Origin: Onchidella celtica
Taxonomy: Eukaryota; Mollusca; Gastropoda; Systellommatophora; Onchidiidae
Assembly: GCA_963931925.1 (NCBI GenBank)
Contig: OZ007569.1
Location: 42,929,521-42,993,520 of the forward strand
Direction: 5' to 3'
DNA: 64,000 nt
This document shows, in pieces, positions 4,801 to 48,055 of the stretch. Positions within the stretch are counted from its first letter, which is position 1. The number at the start of each line of letters is the position of its first letter. The translations under genes were made by a program, and so were the position numbers. The notes below the pieces were generated by a model that ran no database searches, had not been told where the DNA came from, and saw nothing but the letters and a program-made list of their open reading frames with translations.

Positions 4801-7800
4801 AATATTTTAATCTTCAGCCATAAATATCAGACCTCATATAAATCCTACCATTCTGTTATCAGCTGCCAATGTGTTTATTGTAGAAAAAAACTAATGTCAA
4901 AATTGTCTTGTTTTTGTTGTAGTCTTCTTCCTTATCTTTGGTAGCGCATTCAAAAGCCAATCCCATAGCTAGCTAGCAAGATTTGAACATTTAAGTACAA
5001 GTCCATCATGCATTCTGGCATATGGTCTGCTTTATAGTTTGTATTATGGGAACATGCACCAAAACTACTAAATTTTAATCACACTTTTGTCATATAATGG
5101 GCAGGTATTTATGGAAATTTTTTGCTCAGAAATAAAAACATTAAAAAAAAAACTTTAATAAGTTTCTTGCCTCCCACATCCTGGGTCGTTTGAAAATAAA
5201 AACAATGAATTTTACATAACTTGAATCTTAGTTATACTTTCAATTTTAAATGCCACTGTCTACTATAGGGAACTGATCCTTGTGACAGTATTTTTATAAG
5301 CTACGCCTTGGAAGATGTTCAACTTTTGTGCATGACAATTACTTTTGTTTCCACAGACAAAGGAACTTCACAAATGAAACCAATTTGACAAACGAAGTGC
5401 TTATTCCCAAGTTCCTCCAGCCTAAGGGGTCTGCAGTAGTGCAATGACTAGCATCTGCGGTTATCAGTCAGAGACAATGGGTTCGATCCCATGCCGAAGC
5501 TTTTTTTTTTTCTTTTTTAAACCTAGTACTGCTCATCATCATCATCATCATCATTGCCTTTCTCACCCTGGATCAGGGTATAGGCCACCAACAAACACTT
5601 TCCATCCCTCTCTATCATGGGCCAGTCTCTTTACATTATTCCAAGTCTTTCCGCTTCGTTGCACATCATTTTCTCTGGCTCTTCTCCACGTTCCGCGCGG
5701 CCTTCCTCTTGATCTCTTGCCCTGGGGATTCCAATCCAATACCTTCTTCGTGATGCTGTTTCCTGGCCTCCTGAGAGTGTGGCCGATCCATCTCCATCGC
5801 CTCCTACCAATTTCCTCTCTGACTGGGCTCTGTCTTGTTCTTTTCCATACAATTTCATTGCTGACCTTGTCTGTCCATCTGATCTTAAGTAGCTTCCTCA
5901 AACATCTGTTGATGAAAACTTGGATTCTCTTTATGCAGGCCTGGGACGCATTCCAAGTCTCACATCCATACAACAGGACTGACTTCACGTTCGAGTTGAA
6001 TATCCTCAGCTTTGTTTTTAGAGATATATCCTTGGTTCTCCAAATCTTGCTTAAGGACGTGAAAGCTGCCTGTGCCTTTCCAATTCGTGCTTTGACTTCT
6101 GCCTCTGTTCCTCCCTTATTGTCAATGATACTACCAAGATAGCAGAAGGACTCTACATCTTCCAGTGGTTGATCTCCTACTCTGACTTGTGCGCTTGGGG
6201 GTGCAACAATTTTTAGGACCTTCGACTTCGCAGGATGTATCCTCAATCCAATAGATTCTGAAATTTTGTTTAGAGCTGTAGTCTTTGCTTGCATCTGGTC
6301 GTGTGTGTGCGACAATAGTGCCAAGTCATCTGCAAAATCTAGATCGTCCAGCTGTGTCCATGGGGTCCATTGTATGCCATTTCTTCCTCCACTGGTGGTT
6401 TCTTTCATAAGCCAATCAATCACCAGGACAAACAGAAATGGGGACAGCAAACAACCCTGCCTAACACCAGTCTTGATATCAAAGCTGTCAGTAAGCTCGC
6501 CATCGTGTACGACTCTGCAACTTGTCCCCTCGTACATGCTCTTGATAAGGTTCACCATCTTCTCTGGGATTCCATAATGTCTCAATATTCTCCACAGTGT
6601 TTCTCTATCGATGCTATCAAAGGCCTTCTCGTAGTCAAGGAAGTTCACTATCAGTTGGGAGTTCCACTCTAGCGACTGCTCTACTATGATTCTCAGCGTG
6701 GCGATCTGGTCGGTGGTTGATCGATTACTCCTGAAACCAGCTTGCTCCTCACGAAGTTTTGGGTCTGTTGCATTCTGTATTCGCTTGAGAATAATCCGGT
6801 TGAAAACCTTTCCTGCTCATAATTAGTAATATTAGGAATCATTGTTTTTTTTGTTTTTCTAAGGGTTTTGCAAAATCAATATCAAGGAGAAACAGATCAT
6901 TACTAGTGTGCTCCAGATTACTTCTTTTATTTATTCCTGTTCATTGCATGGGACAGTCGCCAATTAGAAATAAAAAGTGTAAATCGAATATTTGGCATGT
7001 AAATGATTTCTTTAAGTCAGTGTGAACTGAAAATTTCATCTCTCTCTATGGTAACATAGACCTATCCTGTATTTTACTGAAAATATAATTTGGGGGTCTT
7101 CTGCTTCAGCTATTTGTTGTTTTGTTTTATTACCTTTTTGTTAGCAAGGCTGCTTAGCTCATTTTTATTTGCTCTTCGGACTTTCACTGTGATTGCAAAC
7201 CTAACAAAATTGGCTAATAATATCATCTAAACAAAACAAAAGAATCCTCTTCACAACAAAAATTTTATACCCTGGAGCAAAGCAACGATGATCAATGGGG
7301 GAAAAGGCAGAAAAAAAGTTGCAAAAAAATTTTTTTTTTAAATTGTCAGCTCTTGCGGAGATCTGAACACCCCTTACCGACTCAGCAGGCGAGTTTACCA
7401 ATTAGCATGCGACTGCGGAACCTGGGTAAAGGGATTCTCTAATGCTAAAGAGGACATGATAACCAATAAGTATCATTAAAAAAAGACAACCTGCTGCATC
7501 ATTACAGTAAGAAACATCGTGCGTTACTCCGAATCGAGCCATCTTACTGAGTGAAGAGCTTAATTATTCAACGAAACGAGCCAGATTTGAGATCTAAAGG
7601 AGCCCTTCCTAAATGAAAACCACAAAACCAAAAATCCATCTGCGAATAAGATCTGGATCTAATTTGTAGACATCTGCGAATAAGCATTTAGCTTTTGACA
7701 AAATGTGCAAAAGAAACCTATTACAAACCTTTCATTTAATTTCCATTAATTGGACTGTGTTATGCACTAGCTGCATAACATTAAAAAAAAATATTATTAC

Positions 7801-13112: not shown

Positions 13113-13623
13113 CAAATAGGGCCTACATTTATGATGGAACTATATTAAAAGTTTCCCTTGTTGGCAGGGAGCCATTGTCTTAAAGCTTGCAATTCCCCTA
13201 TTTGTTACCACAATTTAATGGTTAATTGGCTCCTTGTGACATTCGTCAGTAAACCAAGACTCAGTTTATAGGATGGGAAAAGTCTGCCCTCACACTATTA
13301 GTCGAAAAAAAAAAATTCATAACGAATTACGTGAGAAATAATTTAGTAAATCAGACTCTTTTCATCTCCATAATAATTATCAGTTCTCATTAGAAAAAGC
13401 AAATCAAAATCAACGTAACCGAAAATGCCGTTAGTAGTTTTGCTGAGTGATAAGAGACCGGTCACGAAATCTTGAAAACTAGTGTCTGAAATATCTGGTG
13501 GATTTTGAAACATCAAGTGATATCTTGATGCACACATGCACACAATAGAAGAAAATGACATGCTTAATGGCAATTCAACTACTTTCTATTGTTAACTATT
13601 TATTTGTTCATTTTTATCCACAG

Positions 13624-13653
13624 AATTTTCAGGAACGACCTCATAAACAAATC
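13624..13653 (+). other. 5'UTR part of the ankyrin coding exon
   Basis: A splice acceptor (TTTTTATCCACAG, ending at 13623) lies 30 bases before the ATG at 13654. The open frame continues upstream of the acceptor. However, the paralogue at 40555-44028 begins at the residue equivalent to 13654 and has its own acceptor 19 bases upstream of its ATG. The 5'UTR is therefore probably spliced just before the start in both genes. Confidence 0.6.
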
Positions 13654-15429
13654 ATGACGTCATGTTCTAGGAATGAGGCAGTGGCAGGCATTCTTATTCG
13701 AGCCAAATCAGGAAATGTGGCCGAGCTGCAAACATATCTAAGAAATACTGCTGTGGACATCAACTTGACAAACGACCCTGGTTTCTCTGCTCTGATGCTG
13801 GCAGTAGAACTAGGTCAGATAGAGGCATTGAACACACTGATACATGCTGGTGCTGATATCGATTTGAGAAGCAACTCTGGATCACCCTCTTTGAAGCTTG
13901 CAGACTCGAAGAAAGTAGTGAAAGACCCAGAAACGCCATTGCGAGGTGGAAACGCCACAAATCTGAACGATTTTCGTCATGAAGGAAAAACACCATTGAT
14001 GGTGGCATGTATGAAAGGATATCAACCGTGTGTCCAAGCTCTCATTGAAGCTGGAGCTACAATCAATATTTGTGATGAAGAAGAAAACACTCCATTAAGT
14101 TTAGCTGCAACTCAGGAATGTGTCAGAACTCTCGTAGAAGGTGGGGCGGATGTAAATTATCGTACGACATCAGGGATACCGACGATATCTCTTTTGACAT
14201 GTGCCGACAGGGTGCAAATGTTACTCGAAGCTGGGGCACATATTGAACCTGATGATCCGCATCAAGCGACTCCGTTGATGCATGCAGCCGAGAAGGGAAA
14301 TTTGGCAGCTATTGAAGGACTCTTGCGATGGGGAGCTGATCCCAACAGGCAGGATAGCAATGGCATGACAGCCTTGATGCGAGCAAGAAATGTCGACTGT
14401 GTCAAAGTTTTAATGCAAGCTGGTGCAGATGCAGAGCTTGCAGATTGCTGTGGCCGTACTGCCCTGATGACAGCGGCCAGAAAAAATTATCTGTCCATTA
14501 TGAATGCACTTCTAAATCGTGGAGCCGACCCTGATAAACAAGATGACGAAGGTATGTCAGCATGGGTGCACGCAGGGAATATCGGATGTTTCAGGACTTT
14601 GTTAGTGAACCACTATTCAAATCATAAAGTGCTCATACTCGCAGCATGTAAAGGGAATACCACTGTAGTTCAGGCTCTTTTAGATAAAGGAGTAGACCCT
14701 AATGTGAAAGATGAAGCCGGCACGACGGCATTAATGTGTGCTGTCACACCTGAATGTTCTAGGGCTTTACTCCAGGCTGGAGCCGACACGGAGATAACAG
14801 ATGAACGCGGTCGTACTGCCCTAATGTTTGCAGCATGGGGAGGTAACTTGTCCGTCCTCCATGTACTACTAGAGAATGGTGCGGATCCCACACGACAAGA
14901 TATGAAGGGGTGGACAGCATTGACGTGTACAGATCAGCTGGAATGTTTAAACGCCTTGATTGAAGCGGGAGCAGATATTGAACAAACTGACCAGTCAGGT
15001 CGCAGTACATTGATGATTTCAGCTAGTAAGAGACAAGTTGCTGTTGTTAAGAAATTATTACAAAGTGGAGCAGATCCTAACAGACAAGATAATATGGGCA
15101 TGACCGCATTAATGTATGCTGTGGACGTAGAATGTACAAAAATTTTGTTACAAAATGGAGCAGATATTGCAAAAACTGACCAAAGTGGTCGCAATGCACT
15201 TATGATTACAGCCATTCGAGGTAATGTACCCGTTCTACAGGTGCTTCTAGAGAGAGGACTCGATCCCAATAAGAAGGACAATTCTGGACAAACCGCATTG
15301 ATGTTGGCAAAGAACGAAGAATGTTTCAGCGCTTTACTCAAGACTGGTGCCGTTTGCATGACAATCGACTCTAAAAAGAAAGCAGTGTCAGCTACTCAAC
15401 GCAAGAGACCTAGATGTGTTCTCTCTTGA
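13654..15429 (+). CDS. Ankyrin-repeat protein with C-terminal CaaX box
   Basis: Single coding exon of 591 residues. The start ATG at 13654 (MTSCSRNEAVAGILIRAKSG) aligns with the start of the paralogue at 44028. About 17 ankyrin repeats follow. From roughly residue 220 to 570 they alternate between a canonical 33-residue form (such as QSGRSTLMISA..GADPNRQD) and a 30-residue form with a shortened helix-helix turn (NMGMTALMYAVDVECTKILL..). The C-terminus is DSKKKAVSATQRKRPRCVLS: a basic stretch and then Cys-aliphatic-aliphatic-Ser, a textbook CaaX farnesylation signal (the same four residues end H-Ras). This predicts membrane anchoring of a cytosolic ankyrin scaffold (inference). There is no signal peptide, transmembrane segment, SOCS box or enzyme domain. 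The binding partner is unknown. A polyadenylation signal lies at 15634. Confidence 0.9.
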   Translation: MTSCSRNEAVAGILIRAKSGNVAELQTYLRNTAVDINLTNDPGFSALMLAVELGQIEALNTLIHAGADIDLRSNSGSPSLKLADSKKVVKDPETPLRGGNATNLNDFRHEGKTPLMVACMKGYQPCVQALIEAGATINICDEEENTPLSLAATQECVRTLVEGGADVNYRTTSGIPTISLLTCADRVQMLLEAGAHIEPDDPHQATPLMHAAEKGNLAAIEGLLRWGADPNRQDSNGMTALMRARNVDCVKVLMQAGADAELADCCGRTALMTAARKNYLSIMNALLNRGADPDKQDDEGMSAWVHAGNIGCFRTLLVNHYSNHKVLILAACKGNTTVVQALLDKGVDPNVKDEAGTTALMCAVTPECSRALLQAGADTEITDERGRTALMFAAWGGNLSVLHVLLENGADPTRQDMKGWTALTCTDQLECLNALIEAGADIEQTDQSGRSTLMISASKRQVAVVKKLLQSGADPNRQDNMGMTALMYAVDVECTKILLQNGADIAKTDQSGRNALMITAIRGNVPVLQVLLERGLDPNKKDNSGQTALMLAKNEECFSALLKTGAVCMTIDSKKKAVSATQRKRPRCVLS

Positions 15430-15633: not shown

Positions 15634-15639
15634 AATAAA
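15634..15639 (+). terminator. Polyadenylation signal AATAAA
   Basis: AATAAA lies 205 bases after the stop codon of the CaaX ankyrin gene and is the first such hexamer downstream. Confidence 0.5.
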
Positions 15640-18223: not shown

Positions 18224-19244
18224 CTACTGGCTCTTCTCACTAAGGAACCAAAATTTTTTACAGAAAACATTATAAAAGACATTCCTATAACTCTGGTTCA
18301 AGGTAAAATATACCACAAAATTGAAGGACGCATTCACGGATGTCAAAAAGAAAGCCACTGATGTCGCTATGATGAACACGTCACTGTATTCGGCTCCATA
18401 GTCAAATCCAGGTACCAGTACCTTGACATATACACCTATCACCGTCGGTGTGTTACACAGTATGGATATGCAAGACAACGAACACACCACTGTGATTAGT
18501 CTTACATACTTATGAGAGATGACCAAACGCATATCCCCTTCTTTTTGATTTGTTGAATTTTTATCATCTCGATTTCTTCTTTCGCTGTTTCCCGATTTTT
18601 GCTGTTTTACAGACTTTATAGCATTCGTAGCTGACTGTTTCTGAAACCGAGTAGATTTTCTAAGCCCCAGAACCATAATAACAGTATTGATGCATATGAT
18701 AACTTCACATACAGTGGGCAGCAAAATGGTGTTAGTGATATTATGAATCATTTCCACCTGTGGTCTCCAGTCACCCATGCCAATGGTCACTTTTGTCTTG
18801 TTGAATATGTTATCATAATACGCTATCAGTTTTAGGGAGGCGAAAATCGGTGTTGAACTTAATTAAAGCGAAGACTGTACGGCGCATGGTGAAGAGAAAC
18901 TGTACACGAAGAGGGACGATAACACATAGACACCGTTCCAGGGATACCAGTACTGTGGTCACAGTGGAGACGTCAAAGAACATTGATCGTGTCCAGGAAA
19001 AGACATACTTCTGAAATGCTTCAAAATGTACTGGAACCCATGGGAGTTGAACTTGGAAAAAGTTAGAAGTATAAAACATCAAACTCCAAATTAGCACCAA
19101 GAAATCTGAGACAGACAAGGAAAGTAATGTTAGTGTGACATTGTTGGTTCTGTAGTCTTGATTCAGAAATACAACGATATTGGTGAAATTTAGCAAACTT
19201 CCAGCAAGGCAGAGAAATACAGAAATCACGGTAATGAAATCCAT
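18224..19244 (-). pseudogene. Class A GPCR, frameshifted in TM4
   Basis: Two minus-strand frames make one rhodopsin-type receptor. The first (19244-18813) holds TM1 (ITVISVFLCLAGSLLN), TM2 (LTLLSLSVSDFLVLIWSL) and TM3 with a DRY-position variant (SLERCLCVIVPL), then RRTVFALI. The second, entered by a frame change near 18840, holds IFASLKLIAYYDN (after TM4), TM5, a basic third loop, TM6 (RLITVVCSLSCISILCNTP) and TM7 with an N-x-x-x-Y motif (NFVVY). Only about 8 residues separate RRTVFALI from the post-TM4 loop where about 20 are expected, so TM4 looks partly deleted along with the frame. An AG acceptor just before the ATG (TTTTTCCAG) suggests an N-terminal exon elsewhere. It resembles molluscan peptide or chemosensory receptors; the ligand is unknown. 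A sequencing error is the alternative to pseudogene. Confidence 0.7.
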
Positions 19245-19409
19245 ATCTGGAAAAACCGTCCACGGCTCCTTTCTTTGCGAAGAACCCAGCTTCTTCCTCC
19301 ACGGAACAAGCTTTTTTTAATTCTCTAAGTGAACGCAGCATGTAACGACAAAACTTAACAAGGAATATATTAGTTTCATCTGTATGCAGATCACAATTTA
19401 AATCCAAAA

Positions 19410-25485: not shown

Positions 25486-25972
25486 TAGTGTGCTAAGCAC
25501 TCCGTTCTAGTAGCAGACAAAAGTGCACCAATTTGGATGCCTTTGAAAAGCCGTCAAATATTAATAGTAGCTTAAGGTCATATAAAAAATCGCCTAAAAC
25601 AATTAGGGGTTAAACTAACACACAGAAAAAAGACCAACAGACAAGCTGTATTACTTCCTGTGTCAAATTACCTCGTGTGAACCAAATTTTAGTCACCCCA
25701 GGTTAGCGTTTTGAACTTTTATAGGTAATAAGCAAACACGGTGACAGATATCAACTTTTATTTAATTGGATACAACAGAACAGTATAGACTGACTGGCTT
25801 GTATAGTGGCTTGTAGACATAGTGACACATTAGTGCTATGTTTCTGAAATTGTCTAGTTAGATGTAAGTGACATTTTTCTCAGTGTGACATTTTCTCGTC
25901 GTGCCAAAACTTATATTGTTTTCCCCTAGGCCGTCTTTACTGAAGAGTTGTGGTGATTTTGACAAAAACGCC

Positions 25973-26219
25973 ATGGATAGGATCATTTCCAGCAAGCCTT
26001 GCCAGGGGGTCAACTTCCGTAACATTTCGGTGTTACCGTTAATGTGTTTGACCTTTGTCTCAAGTTCCTATATCGTGGATGCACCAGCGGGGAGATTTGA
26101 AGGGTTGGAACTGACGGCCCCGAATGGACAGAAGTATGTCGGTTTTCGAGGAATTCCGTACGCCGAACCTCCGGAAGGAAAGTTAAGATTTTCTAAACCG
26201 GTGCCCCATCCTAGAATTG
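25973..26219 (+). CDS. Carboxylesterase exon 1
   Basis: Starts at MDRIISSKPCQG; the donor GTAAGT is at 26220. Ends one base into a codon, which exon 2 completes as Asp. The start is chosen because it precedes the signal-like hydrophobic segment; no other ATG is in frame after the acceptor at 25929. Confidence 0.75.
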
Positions 26220-29200
26220 GTAAGTGCTTAAGTAAACGAATTGAATGCATTTAAATGTATGTATAAAAATCAGTTCTCACACAATACAATGCCCATACAA
26301 CATTAAAAGATCACAACTGCCAAACAGGGAGGGATATACCTATTCAAGGCACTCAAAAAATGAAGAGAACATTATGTTTCAATACAATTAGGCGAGAGAG
26401 AATCTAAAGGACCTGATCTATAAGCAAACTGCTGGCGCTGCAGATCCGAATGTCTCGTTTCGTCTCCTCAAGACAAAATGTTTAACACTTTAAATACTAG
26501 AGCGCCCTCCTCCCAGCTAATCATTGGATAAATGGCCATGGTGGCCATCGATGATGTTTCTGTAGGGAAATAAATGTACTTCGTTCTCAAAATGATTAGG
26601 AAATTTGCATTCTGCACATTATGCATGACTGTGTGTGGTTTTTCAATAAGCTGTCGTCTGAAACAGAAAATATGGCTCGGTTATAATAAGGTAACGGAAA
26701 GTGATTCGTGATCTGCAATGCTGTTTGAATTTTTTTGTGCTCGAGACAACCACAGTCACCTACATGTATTTTATTGTTATTATTTCATATTATGGGCCAT
26801 CGGCTAGTGGTGCTTCAGAACTCATTTGAAAAAGCTGTGAAATGGGGATTGACAAGAAGATGGACTATATGAAAGCATTAAAAAAAAAAAACCTGTATTC
26901 TTTTAATAACCCGTCATTGCAATTTTTGAGCTATCAGGACTTGAATACTTTCCCGAATGTTATTATGTGCTTTCCACTGAATCCTTATCTGCTGTCGTAT
27001 ATTATCTCTTTCTTCTACGTTAGCAGACGGTACTTTTAACGCCACACGAGAACCGGTTTGGTGTCCGCAACTTCTACCAGTGCCACTTTCTCCAATAAAT
27101 GTACAAGAGGACTGCCTGATCCTGCATGTTTATGATAAGCAAACCCTGAATCAACACCATGTTAAGAGGAAAGTACTTGTTTTCAGTCATGGGGGCGCAT
27201 TTATATTTGGGTCTGCTGCAACTTGCCTTGTTGGAAACTTCGTTACTGAGCAAGACATTATCGTTGTGGCCATCAACTACAGGTTGGGCATTCTAGGATT
27301 TCTGAGCACTGAGAACCAAGTCAGTCCGGGTAATTATGGTCTATGGGATCAGGCTTTGGCTGTTCAATGGGTCAAGGATAACATTGCATCCTTTGGAGGA
27401 GATCCTGATGACATTACAATAGCTGGAGAATCAAGTGGTGCTTCGTCGGTTGCGTTTCTCTCCATGAGTCCAGCTGCAATAGGACTTTTCACGAAAGTGT
27501 TCCCTATGAGCGGCACTGCCACTTCTATGTTAGCCAATGCTGTAAATCCACAACTTCATGCTTTACAGTTCGCTAAATCTGTAAATTGTTGGGATGGTGA
27601 AGTAGATCATAAAGTAGGAATTGAACAGAGTGAAGACATAATCAAATGTCTACGGGAGCTCCCACTGTCAAACTTTACTCATTATCCCGCTTTCAATTTG
27701 GCAATACCACAATTCGTTCCAACTGTAGATGGAGAATTTGTTCCAAATTCTCCATTTAAACTAATCAAGGACAAAGAATATCTGGAGTCTGTAAATTTCT
27801 ACCAAAGGTCTTACCTAATTGGACTGGACAATAATGAGAAGACTTTTGTACAATTGTGGGAAGTTCCTGTACAGTCCATGGAGGACATTCCTGAAGCTGA
27901 CAGTAATGAAACTGTTTCAGATATGCTTAATATGAGCAAAGCATTAGTTTTGCAATCACGATTTGGAATAGATCCATCCCAAATATTGATAGATAAAGTA
28001 ATGAACTGGTACGACCGACGATTTGGAAAGGATTCCTTAACAGAACTAATGTCGGATAACTTGTTCTTGATTCCTACGTATGATCTGGCCGACGCCCTCG
28101 CTGATAATCAGCAAAGTAATGCTTACCTCTTATACTTTAACCACTATCCAAATTTCATGAAAGGGGACATTAAAGGAATGGCCCATGGCGTAGATATGCT
28201 GTATTGGCAAGATCATGGAGTTGAATCTCTGAAATCTGTACTGGAAGGCGTGGCTGGAGACATGAATTTGGAAGACAAAGAAATGAAATCAGCGTTTTCA
28301 GCGATCATCAGTGACTTCGTCAAAACAGGGTATGTTGCGTTTATCTCTTTGTTCTGCTTCCACTTGCAATAGATGCGATTATGATGTCATTTCCGAAAGA
28401 AGGCTGAAAAGGAGAAACTCAGATGAATGAATAAACAAACCACATGTAGTTTCGTGTGTTGTTTTGTGTGGAGACGGATTCTTTGTTTAATTCCCTTCTT
28501 GTGTTCCTTCCCTTTCGTTTGTCTTTTACCATCAATCATTCGGCGTTTTTGTTCTCATTTAATTGTTCTCCTTGGTCTTATATTATGTCCTCTTCAAATC
28601 TTTGTTATAATTGCTTTTATTTATGTTTCTTTAACCTCCTTTTGTTCGACTTTCAGTTATTGGGTTTATCTCGCCGTGGCTTTTGTGTGCCTTTCGATTT
28701 CGTTTCCACCATCTATTGCCGTGTTCATATTGTTTTCTGTCTTCTTTACTTGCTCTACACAAACTGCCTTGTTTTTTCTGTCTTATGGAGACTGCCAGCA
28801 CACCGGTGCAGCAAGCGTATTATGTGTTTAGGCTGCGGGCAGAGTGGGGCAGAGCACCCAAGTAGACCTATATCAACGCACAACTAAGTGGCTGAAGAGT
28901 TGTCGCTCGATGAGTAAAAAACGAGTAGAAATAAAGCCTAGCTGATTTCGCACCGCTTTGCCGGCAATTTGCACACCCCACGTTACATCTATTATAGCGT
29001 TTTATCTGCCCCGAGGTGCCTTGCTAGCTGTCGGTAGGCCCCTTATTGAGTTTAAAAGACAAACACCGCCTAATGAAGTCCAGGCGTGGGAGAGTCATAC
29101 ATTGGAGTAATGTGTTGGAATTGCTCTCTCTTACCACACGGTTAACCACCCACCCAGGGAAAACAACTTACAGCCGAATCCTTCAATCACTCGAACAACC

Positions 29201-40554: not shown

Positions 40555-43500
40555 CTATGTCAGGTGCTGTCCTCCAAGTGGCCAGTTATAAAGTAAAGGT
40601 CTTGGTATGGGCAATGTTTCATACTGTACTGGATCAAAGCAAAAAGAAATGTTGGACCACTGACTGGGTGGCAGTCGTGCTACAGGTGTTTGGAACATGA
40701 GCATACGCTGAAGTAGGGGTGGGAGTCCTGTCTGTCTGATGCGGCCTTCTCTCTGAAGACTGGGTCCGAGAGCCGTAGACACCGCTATAAAAGCTAACTT
40801 GACCAGTGGCCAGGGATATCTCATCGCTTGCTGCAGGAAGTAAACCATTGTCACCTTATCATCTCTTTCTTCTGTGAGTCTATCTGACTCTGTCTGTAGC
40901 ACAGGTTGTTGTGTTTGATGCCCAGAGATGACATGACGAATAATTGTTATATCTGTATTTGTAACGTAACAACAGGCAAGCATATATTTGACTGCCTGTA
41001 TGTTATGAAAGTCAAGTGCCCAGTGGAGTGTAGATGTTCCATATAAATTTCCGTAGTTATGTTTAGTCACTTTACTGTAATGTAGTAGCCCATTGTTCAC
41101 ACCTAACCATAACATTAGCTGGAAGTTGGTATCAGGCAGTCCACTCATATAAATCTTAAATTGCTCATGTAGCAAATAATGTCGATATGAAAAGTTGATT
41201 ACAGGGGAAGCGCCTTTCTTCATCAGCACAGAAATGGCGGGTATGGCATTGGGCATCTTAAAAGGATTTTGAAGGGGCTTACGGTGAGCAATATTTTCAG
41301 CAAGTAATTGTAACCTTGTAACCAGAACAGTGCGATCCAAATGATCTAACAGGTCAGGATCAGCTCCATGATCCAGCAAACTTTCGAGACAACCCATGTT
41401 ATTGGCATGCATTAGTGCTGTCATGCCGCTATTATCTTGTTTGTTAGGATCAGCACCTTTCTCCAGAATTGCTTGTACAATGTTCGTATTTCTTTGTTTT
41501 GATGTCATCATTAACGCCGTCCAGCCGTCATTGTCTTGTTTGTTGGGGTTACCTCCTCGCCGTAATATTGTTTTTGCCACGCACCCATGTCCTGCTTGCG
41601 TTGCTGCAATTAATGCGGTCTTGCCAGCATTGTCTTGCAGGTTAGGGTTTGCTGCCCCATCTAGTAGTTCTTTCACTATATTCACATTCCCTTTTTTTGA
41701 TGCTACCATTAAAGCGGTCTTGCCAGCATTGTCTTGCAGGTTAGGGTTTGCTGCCCCATCTAATAGTTCTTTCACTATATTCACATTCCCTTTTTCTGAT
41801 GCTACCATTAAAGCGGTTTTGCCATCACTGTCTTGCCTGTTAGTGTAAACTCCTTTTTCAAGTAATTTTTTAACTATCGTTTTATTACTATTATGTAATG
41901 CTGTCAATAACGCTGTCCTGCCACGATGATCTTGCCTGTTAAGTTCACAACCTTTTTCTAGTAATGTTTCAACCACTTTTACATAACCTTTCTCTGATGA
42001 TAATATTAATGCGCTCTTTCCAGTATTGTCACATCTGTTGGGGTCCGCTCCCCCTTCGAGCAGTGCTTTAACCACACCTATGTTGTTTCTTTCCAACGCA
42101 ATCATCAAAGCTGTCTTCCTGGAAATGTCCCTTGTGTTAGGGTCGCATCCACTTTCTAGGAGCGCTTGGACCATAGCGAAATGTTCATTCTTTGAAGCCA
42201 TCATTAAGGCGGTCTTGCCGTTTCTGTCTTGCTTATCAGGATTGCCTCCCCCTCCCAGTAGTAGTTTAAACACGCGTAAATAACGGTGTTCTATTGCCGT
42301 CATTAACGCCGTTTTACCACTCTTATCTTGTTTGTTAGGATCGCTTCCGCTTTCTAGCAACATTAGAACTATCATCTTATTTCCAGTTTCAGATGCCATC
42401 ATTGACGCGGTCTTCCCACTCATGGTATGCTTGTTGGGGTCAGCTCCCCTTTCTAGCAGTGCTTTGACCACTTTTGTTTTACTTCTTTCCGACGCCATCA
42501 TTAAGGACGTCTTTCCTGTATTGTCTTGGCCATTGGGATGGGCTCCCCTTTCTAGCAGCGCTTTAACCACGCCCACATCATGTTTTTCCGATGCCACCAT
42601 TAGAGCTGTCTTCCCAGTATTGTCCTGTCTGTTAGGGTCAGCTCCCCCTTCTAGCAGTGCTTCCACCACGTTCAGTTTACTTTTTTCCGATGCCATCATC
42701 AGGGCTGTCTTCCCAGTATTGTCCTGTCTGTTGGGGACAGCTCCTCTTTCTAATAATGATTTCACCACGTTCAGTTTACTTCTTTCCGATGCCACCATTA
42801 AGGCTGTCTTCCCAGTAATGTCCTGTATGTTGGGGTCAGCTCCTCTTTCTAGCAGTGCTTTCATTATGTTCAGTTTACTTCTTTCCGACGCCATTATCAT
42901 AGCTGTCTTCCCAGTAATGTCCTGTCTATTTAGATTACACTCCCTTTCCAACAATACATTAATCACTTCCGAGTTTTCTATTACAGATGTCACCACGAAG
43001 GTGGTCTTCCGACTACTGCCATATGAATTATCACCGGTATCCTTTTCTAAAATTCCAACTGCCACATGTGTATTGCCTGTCTGAGATGCTAACATTGATG
43101 CTTTCATATCACTGTTGTCATGCTCGTTTTGGTCAGCCCCATTTCCCAGCAGTTTTTCAATCACGTTCAGTTGACCTGTGTTTGGCGCAGTTTCATCACT
43201 GCTATCTTCCTTGTGTGTGTGGGCTCCTCTGTCTGAGAATACGCGTGTCTTACCAACAGTCTGTTTTCGTTGACTACATGAAACACTATGGCAGTTTTCG
43301 GGTACACACACCCTGTGCATCAAAGCTGTGAGGCCTGTATCATCAGACTGTTCAAGATTTGCTCCAGCATCCAGTAACACTCTGACACATTTACTGCTCT
43401 TTGCCATCATTAAAGCTGTCATGCCAAGAGAATTCTTTTTGTTAGGGTCAGCTCCATTTTTTAATAGAGTGTGGAGAACAAGTAGATTATCTTTCTGCGC

Positions 43501-44028
43501 TGCTCTCATAAGCGCATTGCATTTGTAGTGATCTGTTTGCTCTATATCTGCCCCAGCTTGTAATAAAACTCTGACACATTCGAGATTCTGTGCCTGCATC
43601 AGAGCTTTTTGTGTCCCTATGTTTCCACACAGACTTTCATCCGCCCCTCTGTCTAGGAGATATTCTATGCATTTCAGATATTCAGTTAGTATTTCCTGGT
43701 TGTTATTTTGTTCATCAAAAGCGTTGACTGTGACACCAGTTTCCATGAAAGTTTGACCACACTCTGTATAGTCGGTCTCACATGCTACTATCAACGGCGT
43801 TTTTTCTCCAAGTGCAAAACTCTTTATGTTTACATCAACACCGGCCTGTATCAACGCTTTAAGTGCTTCGACCTCCCCCTTCTGTATAGTCTGTATCAAG
43901 ACGGACCAGGCAGCATTCCTTCTAGAATCGATGTCAATGTTGCTGTCACTTAAATATGTTTGCAGTTCTGAAATACTTACTGCCACGGCTCGGATCAGAA
44001 CGTCCGAAACTGTGTCACTTGACGCCAT
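40555..44028 (-). CDS. Long ankyrin-repeat protein with SOCS-box-like C-terminus
   Basis: Single coding exon of 1157 residues starting MASSDTVSDVLIRAVAVS. It carries about 26 ankyrin repeats: an irregular N-terminal third, then some 17 very uniform 33-residue repeats (xTGKTALMVASE..VVKALLERGADPNRQD). After residue 900 the sequence leaves the consensus (LPDTNFQLMLWLGVNNGLL). At about 1074-1083 PLVKLAFIAV fits the Elongin B/C box pattern, and at 1102-1106 LPPLL lies where a Cullin-5 box sits. Together these look like the SOCS box of ASB proteins, substrate receptors of CUL5 ubiquitin ligases (family knowledge; the assignment is inferred). Another 40 residues follow, unusual for ASBs. A splice acceptor ends at 44048, 19 bases before the ATG. 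It is a paralogue of the CaaX ankyrin gene at 13654. Confidence 0.85.
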   Translation of the reverse strand: MASSDTVSDVLIRAVAVSISELQTYLSDSNIDIDSRRNAAWSVLIQTIQKGEVEALKALIQAGVDVNIKSFALGEKTPLIVACETDYTECGQTFMETGVTVNAFDEQNNNQEILTEYLKCIEYLLDRGADESLCGNIGTQKALMQAQNLECVRVLLQAGADIEQTDHYKCNALMRAAQKDNLLVLHTLLKNGADPNKKNSLGMTALMMAKSSKCVRVLLDAGANLEQSDDTGLTALMHRVCVPENCHSVSCSQRKQTVGKTRVFSDRGAHTHKEDSSDETAPNTGQLNVIEKLLGNGADQNEHDNSDMKASMLASQTGNTHVAVGILEKDTGDNSYGSSRKTTFVVTSVIENSEVINVLLERECNLNRQDITGKTAMIMASERSKLNIMKALLERGADPNIQDITGKTALMVASERSKLNVVKSLLERGAVPNRQDNTGKTALMMASEKSKLNVVEALLEGGADPNRQDNTGKTALMVASEKHDVGVVKALLERGAHPNGQDNTGKTSLMMASERSKTKVVKALLERGADPNKHTMSGKTASMMASETGNKMIVLMLLESGSDPNKQDKSGKTALMTAIEHRYLRVFKLLLGGGGNPDKQDRNGKTALMMASKNEHFAMVQALLESGCDPNTRDISRKTALMIALERNNIGVVKALLEGGADPNRCDNTGKSALILSSEKGYVKVVETLLEKGCELNRQDHRGRTALLTALHNSNKTIVKKLLEKGVYTNRQDSDGKTALMVASEKGNVNIVKELLDGAANPNLQDNAGKTALMVASKKGNVNIVKELLDGAANPNLQDNAGKTALIAATQAGHGCVAKTILRRGGNPNKQDNDGWTALMMTSKQRNTNIVQAILEKGADPNKQDNSGMTALMHANNMGCLESLLDHGADPDLLDHLDRTVLVTRLQLLAENIAHRKPLQNPFKMPNAIPAISVLMKKGASPVINFSYRHYLLHEQFKIYMSGLPDTNFQLMLWLGVNNGLLHYSKVTKHNYGNLYGTSTLHWALDFHNIQAVKYMLACCYVTNTDITIIRHVISGHQTQQPVLQTESDRLTEERDDKVTMVYFLQQAMRYPWPLVKLAFIAVSTALGPSLQREGRIRQTGLPPLLQRMLMFQTPVARLPPSQWSNISFCFDPVQYETLPIPRPLLYNWPLGGQHLT
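41615..41812 (-). repeat. Recent 99-bp tandem duplication inside the ankyrin array
   Basis: Two consecutive ankyrin repeats (each GNVNIVKELLDGAANPNLQD) are encoded by almost identical DNA with a 99-base period; landmark GCCAGCATTGTCTTGCAGG at 41623 and 41722. The flanking repeats are clearly more diverged at the DNA level. Confidence 0.85.
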
Positions 44029-44229: not shown

Positions 44230-47200
44230 CTATGATAGCAAAGGCTATGGGAGTAAACCCAGACAGAAAATCAGGAGTGGAGACCCGAAGGTGGTTGTCA
44301 GGGAGAACTGCATCAAACTGGCTTCCAGCATCTCCTGCAGCCGGACTAGTTCCAAATGTATTGACCTGGTCTCTCCCTTGGGTTTAACTAGAATGGCAGA
44401 GAGAGGGGTGGTGCCTCTGGGCAAAGCACCATCTCTTAAAAATAGCCCAGGCAAGGCAGCAAAACGAGGAGGCGTTTGCTCGGGCTTGGCAAGCGTCTGT
44501 CTCTCCTCTATAAGCCCACCCATTTCCGATTTGGAGAGGACACTCCAGCCATCCGTTACGGATGGGCACAACACGGGAGGTGGCAGTTACCGGTGATAAG
44601 CTCAATCCATTTGGCGTACGGATGAGCGCCAGGGGTCCCCTCTGTCGGTGGGAGCGGCTTTTCAGCTGCATTGATCAACTACCGCCCGCCGTAACCTGGG
44701 CAGCCCCCAGGCAGTTGGGTGTTGTTCCGCCACGTCAGCCTGCTTCATAAGGTGGCTGGAGCTAGACCAAAAGTCAAAAAGCTGACGTAAAGTGTGCACC
44801 TGGCAAAAACAGAAAAATACTAAAACTTGGTACCTGGAACGTCAGAACAATGCGCCCAGGCTTGCAACAGCAAGATCTCACTGATATTGACTCCATCAGG
44901 AAATCCCAAATTATTGATCGAGAACTTCAGCTACTAAACATCGACATCGCTGCCCTTCAAGAAACTCGACTTCCCGACTCCGGGTCAGTCAAAGAAGAAA
45001 ACTACACCTTCTTCTGGCAGGGCCTTAGCAGCGAACAGCCGAGAATCCACGGCGTGGGCTTCGCCGTAAAAAACTCCCTTATCAATTCGATCGCAACTCC
45101 AATTGGAGTGTCAGAACGCATCATGACACTCAGACTGAACACTCGGTCTGGTTTTACCAACATTATCTGTGTCTATGCCCCAACACTTACCTCCTCTGAC
45201 GAAACCAAAGACATTTTCTACGAGGCATTGCAGAGGACTCTCCACAACATCCCTCTCACCGAAGGCCTGCTAATTCTGGGTGACTTTAACGCTCGAGTGG
45301 GAGCAGATCACTCCGCATGGCCAAAGTGCATTGGGCACTTCGGCATTGGCAACATCAACGAAAACGGGCAGCGCCTTCTGGAGCTATGCTCCGTAAACTC
45401 ATTATGTGTTACAAACACGTACTTTGACCTTAAGAGATGCCAAAGAACATCATGGCGCCATCCCAGGTCTGGCCATTGGCATCAATTAGATCTTATTCTC
45501 TCAAGGAGGAAGAGTTTGGGCTGTATAAAAATAACTCGTTCCCTCCACAGTGCTGACTGTGACACCGACCATGCACTGGTAGTCAGCAAAATCAAAATTT
45601 CGGCCAAGAAAATATACAGATCAAAAGCCCCTTCAATCCCTAAGATCAATGTAACAGCAATCAGAGATGAATCAAATAGAAAGTCTTTTGAAAAGTTATT
45701 TGCTGAAAGCATGGATAATGTCACCCAATGTGACTCGGTAGATGAAACATGGAACACTCTCAGTTCAAAAATTCATGACTGTGCCATCAAGTCTTTTGGA
45801 CAGCATAAAGTTTCAAACAACGACTGGGTAGCCCAGAACAGCGAAATTCTCCTACCTCTCATTGAGCAAAAGAAATCTGCTTTCAATGAGTATAACAAAA
45901 ATTGCAATCAGAGTACAAAAACTTGTTTGAAAAATGCAAAAGCTAAACTTCAGCTGGAGGTAAGACGTTGCGCCAACAAATACTGGACAGACTTGTGTAA
46001 CAGCATACAAGAGGCAAATGAAAAGGGAGATATGAAAACCGCCTTTAGTCAGATGAAAGTAGCTCTTGGGCCAATCATCACCAAAAGCGCCCCACTTAAG
46101 TCTGTAAATGGTGAACCCATCACAGATAAAAATGAACAACTGAATAGGTGGGTAGAGCATTACTCTCTGTTGTATTCAACTGAGAAAAATATTCCACCAG
46201 ATTTTGAGGAACACCTCCAAAAACTGCCAATAATGGCCGAACTTGACGCTGAACCTTCCTTAGTCGAGCTTTCCAATGCAATCGACCACCTGTCTGCTGG
46301 AAAAGCCACAGGAAGTGACAACATTCCTGCAGAGGTATTAAAAGACCTAAAAGGCCCACTATTACCACACCTGTATAATCTGTTACTGCAGTGTTGGAAA
46401 GAAGGCGTGATACCACATGATATGAGAGACGCCAAAATTGTCACACTTTACAAGAACAAAGGAGACAAAGGCGACTGCAACAACTATCGAGGCATATCCC
46501 TCCTCAGCATTACTGGAAAGGCTTTTGCTCGCGTCATCCTCTGCCGCCTTCAACAACTGGCGGAAAAAGTCTTACCAGAAACACAATGTGGCTTTCGAAG
46601 CAAACGATCAACTATTGACATGATATTTGCACTTCGGCAAATCCAAGAAAAATGTAAAGAACAAAACAGGCCGCTTATAACATGCTTTGTGGACCTAACA
46701 AAGGCTTTCGACACCGTAAGCCGATCTGGCCTGTATGCAGTCCTTAAATCCATAGGCTGTCCACCAACATTGCTAAAACTTATTGCATCCTTCCACACTG
46801 ACATGAGGGCATGTGTCAACTTTGAAGGCTGCACATCCAATTCATTTGCTGTAAACAGCGGTGTGAAGCAGGGATGTGTTCTTGCTCCTACCTTATTTGG
46901 TATATATTTTGCAGCCCTACTCAAGAATGCCTTTGGTCAATGTTCAGGTGGAGTACTTATTAACACCAGAGTGGACGGCTCCATTTTTAATGTTGCCAGA
47001 CTAAAAGCAAAATCTCGTACAGAGCATATTATGTTACAAGAGCTCCTCTTCGCAGATGATGCTGCAATCGTGGCCCACGATGAAACCACGCTCCAGGCTC
47101 TCATCAATAGCCTTGCCAAAGCCTGTGACAAATTCATGCTAAGGATCAGTGTCTCAAAAACTGTAGTTTTGACGCAAGGCTTGAGAAACCCCAACCCAAT

Positions 47201-48055
47201 CATGCTGAATGGCTCTCCTCTGGAGCAAGTGGGAAAATTCTGCTACCTAGGCTCAACCATCAGTGGTAGCACAGACATAACAACTGAAATAAATGCCAGA
47301 ATAGGAAAGGCGGCCACAGCTTTTGGCAAACTCTCAAAAAGGGTGTGGAACAATAGCAAGCTGACCATCAAAACAAAGGTACTCGTGTACCAAACTTGCG
47401 TCCTAAGCACCCTGCTGTATGGCTCAGAGACATGGACCACCTACTCCAAACATGAAAGATCCCTCAACTCCTTCCACCTGCGCTGCCTACGCAAAATTCT
47501 CAAGATCAAGTGGCAAGACAGGATCTCAAATATCGAAGTTCTGAGCCGAGCCAACATTCCATCAACTCAGGCTCTCCTAGGCAAAAAAAGACTGCGGTGG
47601 CTTGGACATCTCCACCGTATGGAAAATGATCGCATCCCCAGACAAATTCTCTACGGGGAACTTGCTACTGGCAACCGACCCAGAGGTAGGCCACATCTGC
47701 GATTCAAAGACACTTGCAAGGTCACGATGAAAGCATTCAACATCGACCCCAATGAATGGGAGAACCTTGCAAATGATCGAAGCAGATGGAGACAAAAATT
47801 GCGCAGTGGCACGCTCGCAATAGACTTCAAGGCAAAAGAAACATACCTGACAAAACGACAGAGGCGGAATGAAAACACTCGCCAAAGTGAACCCAAAAGA
47901 CTGACCTGCAATCACTGCCATCGCACTCTCGGGTCAAACATTGGTAGAATAAGCCACGAGAGAAGCTGTCAGTCAAAGTGAAAGTGAATATTCTAGCTGC
48001 TAAGACCGTCTGTAAAGACGCTAAAGGCCATATACAATAATTCATAATAAAGATG
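44230..48055 (+). mobile_element. Near-complete non-LTR retrotransposon (RTE-like)
   Basis: A 5' region of about 0.6 kb precedes one long intact frame (44850-47981, open from about 44778), and the element ends in a short AT-rich tail near 48055 (AATAATTCATAATAAAG). There is no LTR and no long poly-A. It lies opposite in direction to the ankyrin-SOCS gene, starting about 200 bases above its ATG and probably inside its 5'UTR intron. The 5' boundary is approximate and target duplications could not be fixed by eye. The intact frame suggests recent arrival. Confidence 0.75.
44850..47981 (+). CDS. LINE polyprotein: endonuclease, reverse transcriptase, zinc finger
   Basis: 1043 residues from the ATG. 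The endonuclease fold begins before it (LKLGTWNVRTM spans the ATG), so translation may start upstream at a non-ATG site. The APE-type endonuclease has LQETRL, GDFNA (144-148) and a late TDH. The reverse transcriptase has YKNKGDKGDCNNYRGISLL, CGFRSKRSTIDMIFALRQIQ, FVDLTKAFDTVSRSGL, SGVKQGCVLAPTLF and the catalytic FADD (734-737). A C-terminal segment (GHLHRMENDR, RGRPHLRFKD) leads to a zinc-finger-like C-x2-C-x12-H-x3-C starting at 1020. No stop or frameshift breaks it, so it could be active. RTE-type organisation is likely, but exact clade needs a tree. Confidence 0.9.
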   Translation: MRPGLQQQDLTDIDSIRKSQIIDRELQLLNIDIAALQETRLPDSGSVKEENYTFFWQGLSSEQPRIHGVGFAVKNSLINSIATPIGVSERIMTLRLNTRSGFTNIICVYAPTLTSSDETKDIFYEALQRTLHNIPLTEGLLILGDFNARVGADHSAWPKCIGHFGIGNINENGQRLLELCSVNSLCVTNTYFDLKRCQRTSWRHPRSGHWHQLDLILSRRKSLGCIKITRSLHSADCDTDHALVVSKIKISAKKIYRSKAPSIPKINVTAIRDESNRKSFEKLFAESMDNVTQCDSVDETWNTLSSKIHDCAIKSFGQHKVSNNDWVAQNSEILLPLIEQKKSAFNEYNKNCNQSTKTCLKNAKAKLQLEVRRCANKYWTDLCNSIQEANEKGDMKTAFSQMKVALGPIITKSAPLKSVNGEPITDKNEQLNRWVEHYSLLYSTEKNIPPDFEEHLQKLPIMAELDAEPSLVELSNAIDHLSAGKATGSDNIPAEVLKDLKGPLLPHLYNLLLQCWKEGVIPHDMRDAKIVTLYKNKGDKGDCNNYRGISLLSITGKAFARVILCRLQQLAEKVLPETQCGFRSKRSTIDMIFALRQIQEKCKEQNRPLITCFVDLTKAFDTVSRSGLYAVLKSIGCPPTLLKLIASFHTDMRACVNFEGCTSNSFAVNSGVKQGCVLAPTLFGIYFAALLKNAFGQCSGGVLINTRVDGSIFNVARLKAKSRTEHIMLQELLFADDAAIVAHDETTLQALINSLAKACDKFMLRISVSKTVVLTQGLRNPNPIMLNGSPLEQVGKFCYLGSTISGSTDITTEINARIGKAATAFGKLSKRVWNNSKLTIKTKVLVYQTCVLSTLLYGSETWTTYSKHERSLNSFHLRCLRKILKIKWQDRISNIEVLSRANIPSTQALLGKKRLRWLGHLHRMENDRIPRQILYGELATGNRPRGRPHLRFKDTCKVTMKAFNIDPNEWENLANDRSRWRQKLRSGTLAIDFKAKETYLTKRQRRNENTRQSEPKRLTCNHCHRTLGSNIGRISHERSCQSK

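Follow-up and report, generated by a model that had tools for sequence, protein, structure and literature searches.

Does an ankyrin-repeat gene of the gastropod Onchidella celtica that ends in the last four residues of H-Ras encode a protein held at a membrane by a farnesyl group? The gene lies in the window analysed in this study (the whole stretch of 64,000 nucleotides), at 13654..15429 (+; 591 aa plus stop; Pfam Ank_2 E 1.4e-88). Our comparisons make it likely that this gene and its closest paralogue encode farnesylated, membrane-tethered ankyrin scaffolds in which a CaaX box replaces the C-terminal domain of most of their relatives.

An ankyrin solenoid with a CaaX end

All seven Pfam families found in the window protein were ankyrin models, its PDB matches were ankyrin proteins, and the Pfam search found no GTPase domain. 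The predicted model (mean pLDDT 82.6, pTM 0.56), built from a three-sequence alignment, is a solenoid of 17 ankyrin helix pairs counted from the DSSP list (residues 6-563; 13669..15342, +), thus Pfam, PDB matches and predicted helix pairs all place repeats along the full length of the protein. Ankyrin hallmarks in window 14362-15342 recur at intervals that alternate between 30 and 33 residues, apart from a single 56-residue gap, and the four-residue first helix in 8 of the 17 pairs of the model is consistent with this 30/33 spacing. Values of pLDDT below 50 were confined to residues 1-3, 75-108 and 571-591, the last of which is a basic tail (15364..15426, +; identified by pLDDT and charge) that leaves the C-terminus flexible and accessible in the model.

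The protein terminates in DSKKKAVSATQRKRPRCVLS followed by TGA (15427..15429, +), and RCVLS, an H-Ras-type CaaX box with its preceding Arg, occupies 15412..15426 (+) according to the frame and the paralogue comparison. The initial annotation described a Lys/Arg-rich stretch followed by CVLS and an immediate stop, and RKRPRCVLS-stop is indeed what is read in the frame. Under a CaaX rule that places Cys at -4 and permits VILMATS at a1, VILM at a2 and SMQACLF at X, this extreme C-terminus qualifies, and it is the only one to do so among the 1,230 stop-ended frames of at least 30 codons in the window, 46 of which have Cys at -4. As a crude check for other targeting signals, we computed Kyte-Doolittle hydrophobicity, and the best 19-residue mean of the window protein was only 1.45, so that no strong hydrophobic stretch is present.

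The start of the coding region is less certain than its end, since the reading frame upstream of the ATG at 13654 is open through a splice-acceptor-like site (a pyrimidine tract then CACAG, with its AG at 13622..13623, +), which would start the exon at about 13624. However, in the paralogue an ATG occupies the corresponding position and is preceded at 27 nt by an acceptor-like tract and AG, the second ankyrin gene of the window likewise has an ATG there, shortly after an acceptor-like pyrimidine tract and AG, and blastn similarity between the window gene and the paralogue begins at 13647, with none upstream. The ATG at 13654 is therefore probably the start codon, and the coding region would then lie entirely in one exon. 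The possibility that a further coding exon joins the frame ahead of this ATG was set aside, the start of the blastn match making 5' UTR the likelier, and probable, identity of the upstream stretch.

A paralogue that keeps the CaaX box and not the basic run

The test for a conserved CaaX box was confined to the 1.14 Gb genome from which the window comes. A protein search of this genome returned at least 252 matches, a lower bound with 74 of 561 candidates scored. Among the matches listed, one paralogue (G000:C3:40473035-40474810), 2.5 Mb from the window gene, is clearly separate from the other relatives: it has 591 residues, is 73% identical over residues 2-591 and also ends in RCVLS-stop, and the next best match (E 1.9e-64) reaches only residue 562. 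When the last 55 residues were used as query, 61 matches were obtained, of which only the window gene and the paralogue reach the query end, the remaining 59 ending at query residue 49 or before. The CaaX box is thus kept in the sole close paralogue found in this genome, and the distant relatives read lack it. The reading frame is intact in both copies, and dN of 0.154 and dS of 0.472 (dN/dS about 0.33) suggest that the genes are under purifying selection and did not duplicate recently.

The tails of the two proteins have diverged up to the CaaX box. Between DSKK and RCVLS only 2 of 9 aligned residues are kept, together with a two-codon indel, and the paralogue tail, SKKISGFSTECKRCVLS, has lost most of the basic cluster and kept CVLS, with net charge over the last 20 residues being +3 compared with +6 in the window protein. 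RCVLS-stop itself carries four nucleotide differences between the two genes (the stop is TAA in the paralogue), all of which preserve the peptide and the stop. Under random substitution, and across the starting sequences and transition biases used, the chance of four such differences is 0.0025-0.006, for a stretch that was chosen afterwards, and that of the three differences within RCVLS alone is 0.015-0.019. When identities were shuffled, the values were 0.04 for the last 30 aligned columns and 0.01 for the last 14.

Because the paralogue keeps CVLS and loses most basic residues, the conserved element appears to be the CaaX box and not the basic run. Of the layout of basic stretch plus CaaX proposed at the outset, the CaaX half is retained in the paralogue and the basic half is less conserved. 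In Ras proteins either a basic run or a palmitoylated Cys upstream can serve as the second signal: K-Ras4B has a basic stretch before its CaaX, as the window protein does, and H-Ras has cysteines near its CaaX, comparable to a Cys that the paralogue carries three residues before the CaaX Cys. It is tempting to speculate that the same alternative applies to this gene pair. Both Ras proteins are GTPases, whereas only ankyrin repeats were found in the window protein.

Prenyltransferases and published data on CVLS

Nine exon matches to Pfam Prenyltrans were found at three places in the genome, and none in 14 control genomes. The exon at C3:56.695 Mb is closest to farnesyltransferase beta (best PDB match, E 5e-16), that at C1:43.098 Mb is closest to geranylgeranyltransferase-I beta, and the third place is on C11. 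In yeast, human FTase farnesylates CVLS, the CaaX of HRas and identical to that of the window protein, and an HRas-type reporter showed no shift without FTase (PMC11152559); another report counts CVLS with the CaaX peptides of highest efficiency (PMC8584866). For human geranylgeranyltransferase-I, one experiment lists CVLS as better modified than by the yeast enzyme, but in another CVLS was unmodified (PMC11152559), and as these results differ, some geranylgeranylation of CVLS may also occur. Together with the retention of CVLS in the paralogue and the disordered tail of the model, the farnesyltransferase beta exon and these published data favour the prenylation and membrane tethering predicted in the initial annotation.

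Prenylated ankyrin-only proteins were also called unusual there, a statement that needs correction in view of TIMAP, MYPT3 and Legionella AnkB. TIMAP (PPP1R16B) and MYPT3 (PPP1R16A) resemble the window protein in combining ankyrin repeats with a C-terminal CaaX, and prenylation and membrane association have been reported for them (PMC6737228, PMC3560227). They differ from it in that MYPTs possess a KVxF PP1-docking motif and a MyPhoNE element (PMC6737228), and TIMAP has five ankyrin repeats (PMC3560227) compared with the 17 predicted helix pairs of the window protein. Regex searches for RVxF-type PP1-docking or MyPhoNE-like motifs matched neither the window protein nor the paralogue, which places the pair outside the TIMAP/MYPT3 (PPP1R16) family by this test. 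AnkB of Legionella is likewise an ankyrin protein anchored through host farnesylation of a C-terminal CaaX, but it is a bacterial F-box protein, set beside the window protein here by published description only (PMC5506055). In the limited literature covered on prenylated ankyrins and on gastropod ankyrin expansion, no title dealt with an ankyrin/CaaX gene pair of this kind. A scan of viral contigs with the window protein gave seven stretches matching a pattern and no relatives.

A large ankyrin family with another C-terminal domain

The window protein shares its N-terminal part and repeats with a large ankyrin family. With 150 of 828 candidates scored, its first 76 residues have at least 50 matches in the genome at a threshold of E 0.01. 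Seven of these, self and paralogue among them, reach E 1.5e-8 or better, and genome matches indicate that the N-terminal part proper, about residues 1-68 (13654..13857, +), is common to few relatives. Four of the five closest N-terminal relatives beyond self and paralogue were read to their end. A conserved C-terminal domain terminates three of them, i.e. L058, L059 and the second ankyrin gene of the window (40555..44028, -; 1157 aa, non-CaaX end, assigned from sequence matches and frame); the frame of the fourth, L057, ends early, and the fifth relative, at C7:48449247, has an internal stop. Within the examined loci there are 16 ankyrin-coding frames with a stop. Besides the two CaaX genes these include 14, and Cys at -4 occurs in none of the 14, or of 15 when the second window gene is counted; within this count an internal stop closes the frame of L005, L043 has masked stretches, and for some frames the true end of the protein may lie elsewhere.

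The conserved domain gave 108 matches in the genome, some of which are fragments, so that the genes are fewer than 108, and none of the matches falls at either CaaX locus. Both CaaX genes thus lack the domain, and tblastn with the last 330 residues of four relatives revealed no convincing downstream remnant of it (window to 40400, paralogue to C3:40481499), the matches lying on ankyrin repeats or being weak and outside coding exons (best E 0.064 and 0.23). That the CaaX pair is related to this very large family, whose conserved domain both genes lack, is the point that these sequence matches add to the initial annotation.

In this family the conserved domain ends in a motif like LPRPRPLLxYWPxGR. 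By eye the domain looks like a SOCS box, and the combination of ankyrin repeats with a conserved C-terminal helical domain likens the domain-bearing relatives to ASB proteins, which have ankyrin repeats and a SOCS box. A first Pfam scan of two stretches of relatives found no SOCS box; in a Pfam search of seven members, one, L052, matched SOCS_box over profile positions 2-39 of 39 (E 0.0017, 19.0 bits, below the cut-off of 23.5), with no such match in the other six. A PDB profile search with the domain gave two weak matches, neither of them a SOCS box, and structure comparison gave many weak matches, ASB9 ranking 42 and 49 with a model of mean pLDDT 63. The domain is possibly SOCS-like.

The genome also holds three ankyrin copies with identical scores at about 21.7 kb spacing (G000:C3 44.298, 44.320 and 44.342 Mb), which reflect either a recent tandem array or duplication in the assembly. 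Other elements of the window comprise a frame of 1071 codons without interruption that matches endonuclease and reverse transcriptase and is LINE-type in layout (44766-47981, +), a reverse transcriptase fragment with DUF6451 (5563-6816, -), exons of the carboxylesterase family (25889-28372, +) and two overlapping frames matching the 7TM chemoreceptor families Srw and Srx (18224-19316, -), which are perhaps one receptor gene in two frames.

Alternative explanations

The CVLS end might instead have arisen by chance when a relative was truncated and lost its C-terminal domain, and have been kept in the pair through shared ancestry only. Both CaaX genes do lack that domain, and at the gene-wide dN alone five unchanged residues would be expected with a chance of 0.18. 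However, the tail just upstream has diverged while every difference in RCVLS-stop is a preserving one, the adjacent 3' UTR is identical at only 86 of 138 positions, and an end of this kind occurs in a single window frame among 1,230, which together make this explanation improbable. An even less probable account treats the basic tail as a nuclear localisation signal, KKK...RKRPR reading as bipartite, with CVLS incidental to it. The cluster that gives the window protein its charge of +6 over the last 20 residues fits such a signal, but the paralogue retains CVLS with most of the cluster gone, so that the CaaX is the conserved element. A nuclear localisation signal and a CaaX could moreover act together, as in lamins.

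It is also conceivable that the annotated end goes unused, through onward splicing of the mRNA or lack of expression of the gene. A donor-like site, GAG|GTGTGT (7/9), lies at the RCV codons of the paralogue, but the window gene is without it, and in the last 400 nt no donor-like site (at least 6/9) is common to both genes. With a candidate polyadenylation signal, AATAAA, 204 nt past the stop (15634..15639, +), splicing onward before the CaaX is not favoured, and frames intact in both copies with dN/dS of about 0.33 argue against an unexpressed gene; of the three alternatives, this one seems to us the most remote.

A proposed membrane scaffold and its meaning

We therefore return to the farnesylated, membrane-tethered scaffold as the preferred reading. 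The window gene would give a long ankyrin solenoid with a flexible C-terminal tail ending in CVLS, to the Cys of which farnesyltransferase would add a farnesyl group; as in Ras, the last three residues would then be cleaved off and the new C-terminus methylated. Aided by the basic tail, the lipid would keep the solenoid on the cytosolic side of a membrane, and there the solenoid would bind a putative partner protein. As the CaaX stands where most relatives carry the conserved domain, the same kind of binding surface would have been moved in this pair from the function of the C-terminal domain to a membrane.

A bolder version, which we regard as rather doubtful, is that an ancestral gene related to a family of up to about 100 genes lost the family's effector domain, perhaps an E3-recruiting SOCS-like box, and gained a Ras-type farnesyl anchor, so that the pair would now act as membrane decoys or scaffolds for the family's ligands and bypass the effector pathway. 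The second signals would have drifted since, to a polybasic run in one copy and an upstream Cys in the other.

Since CVLS is a standard farnesyltransferase substrate, the predicted farnesylation is cheap to test. Under the scaffold reading, an ankyrin-only protein would have a well-defined address at a membrane, and the family would provide a natural comparison of one kind of binding scaffold with two alternative tails in a single genome. If the other tail is an E3-recruiting domain, this would show how membrane-anchored members can arise in a family of degradation adaptors when one tail takes the place of another.
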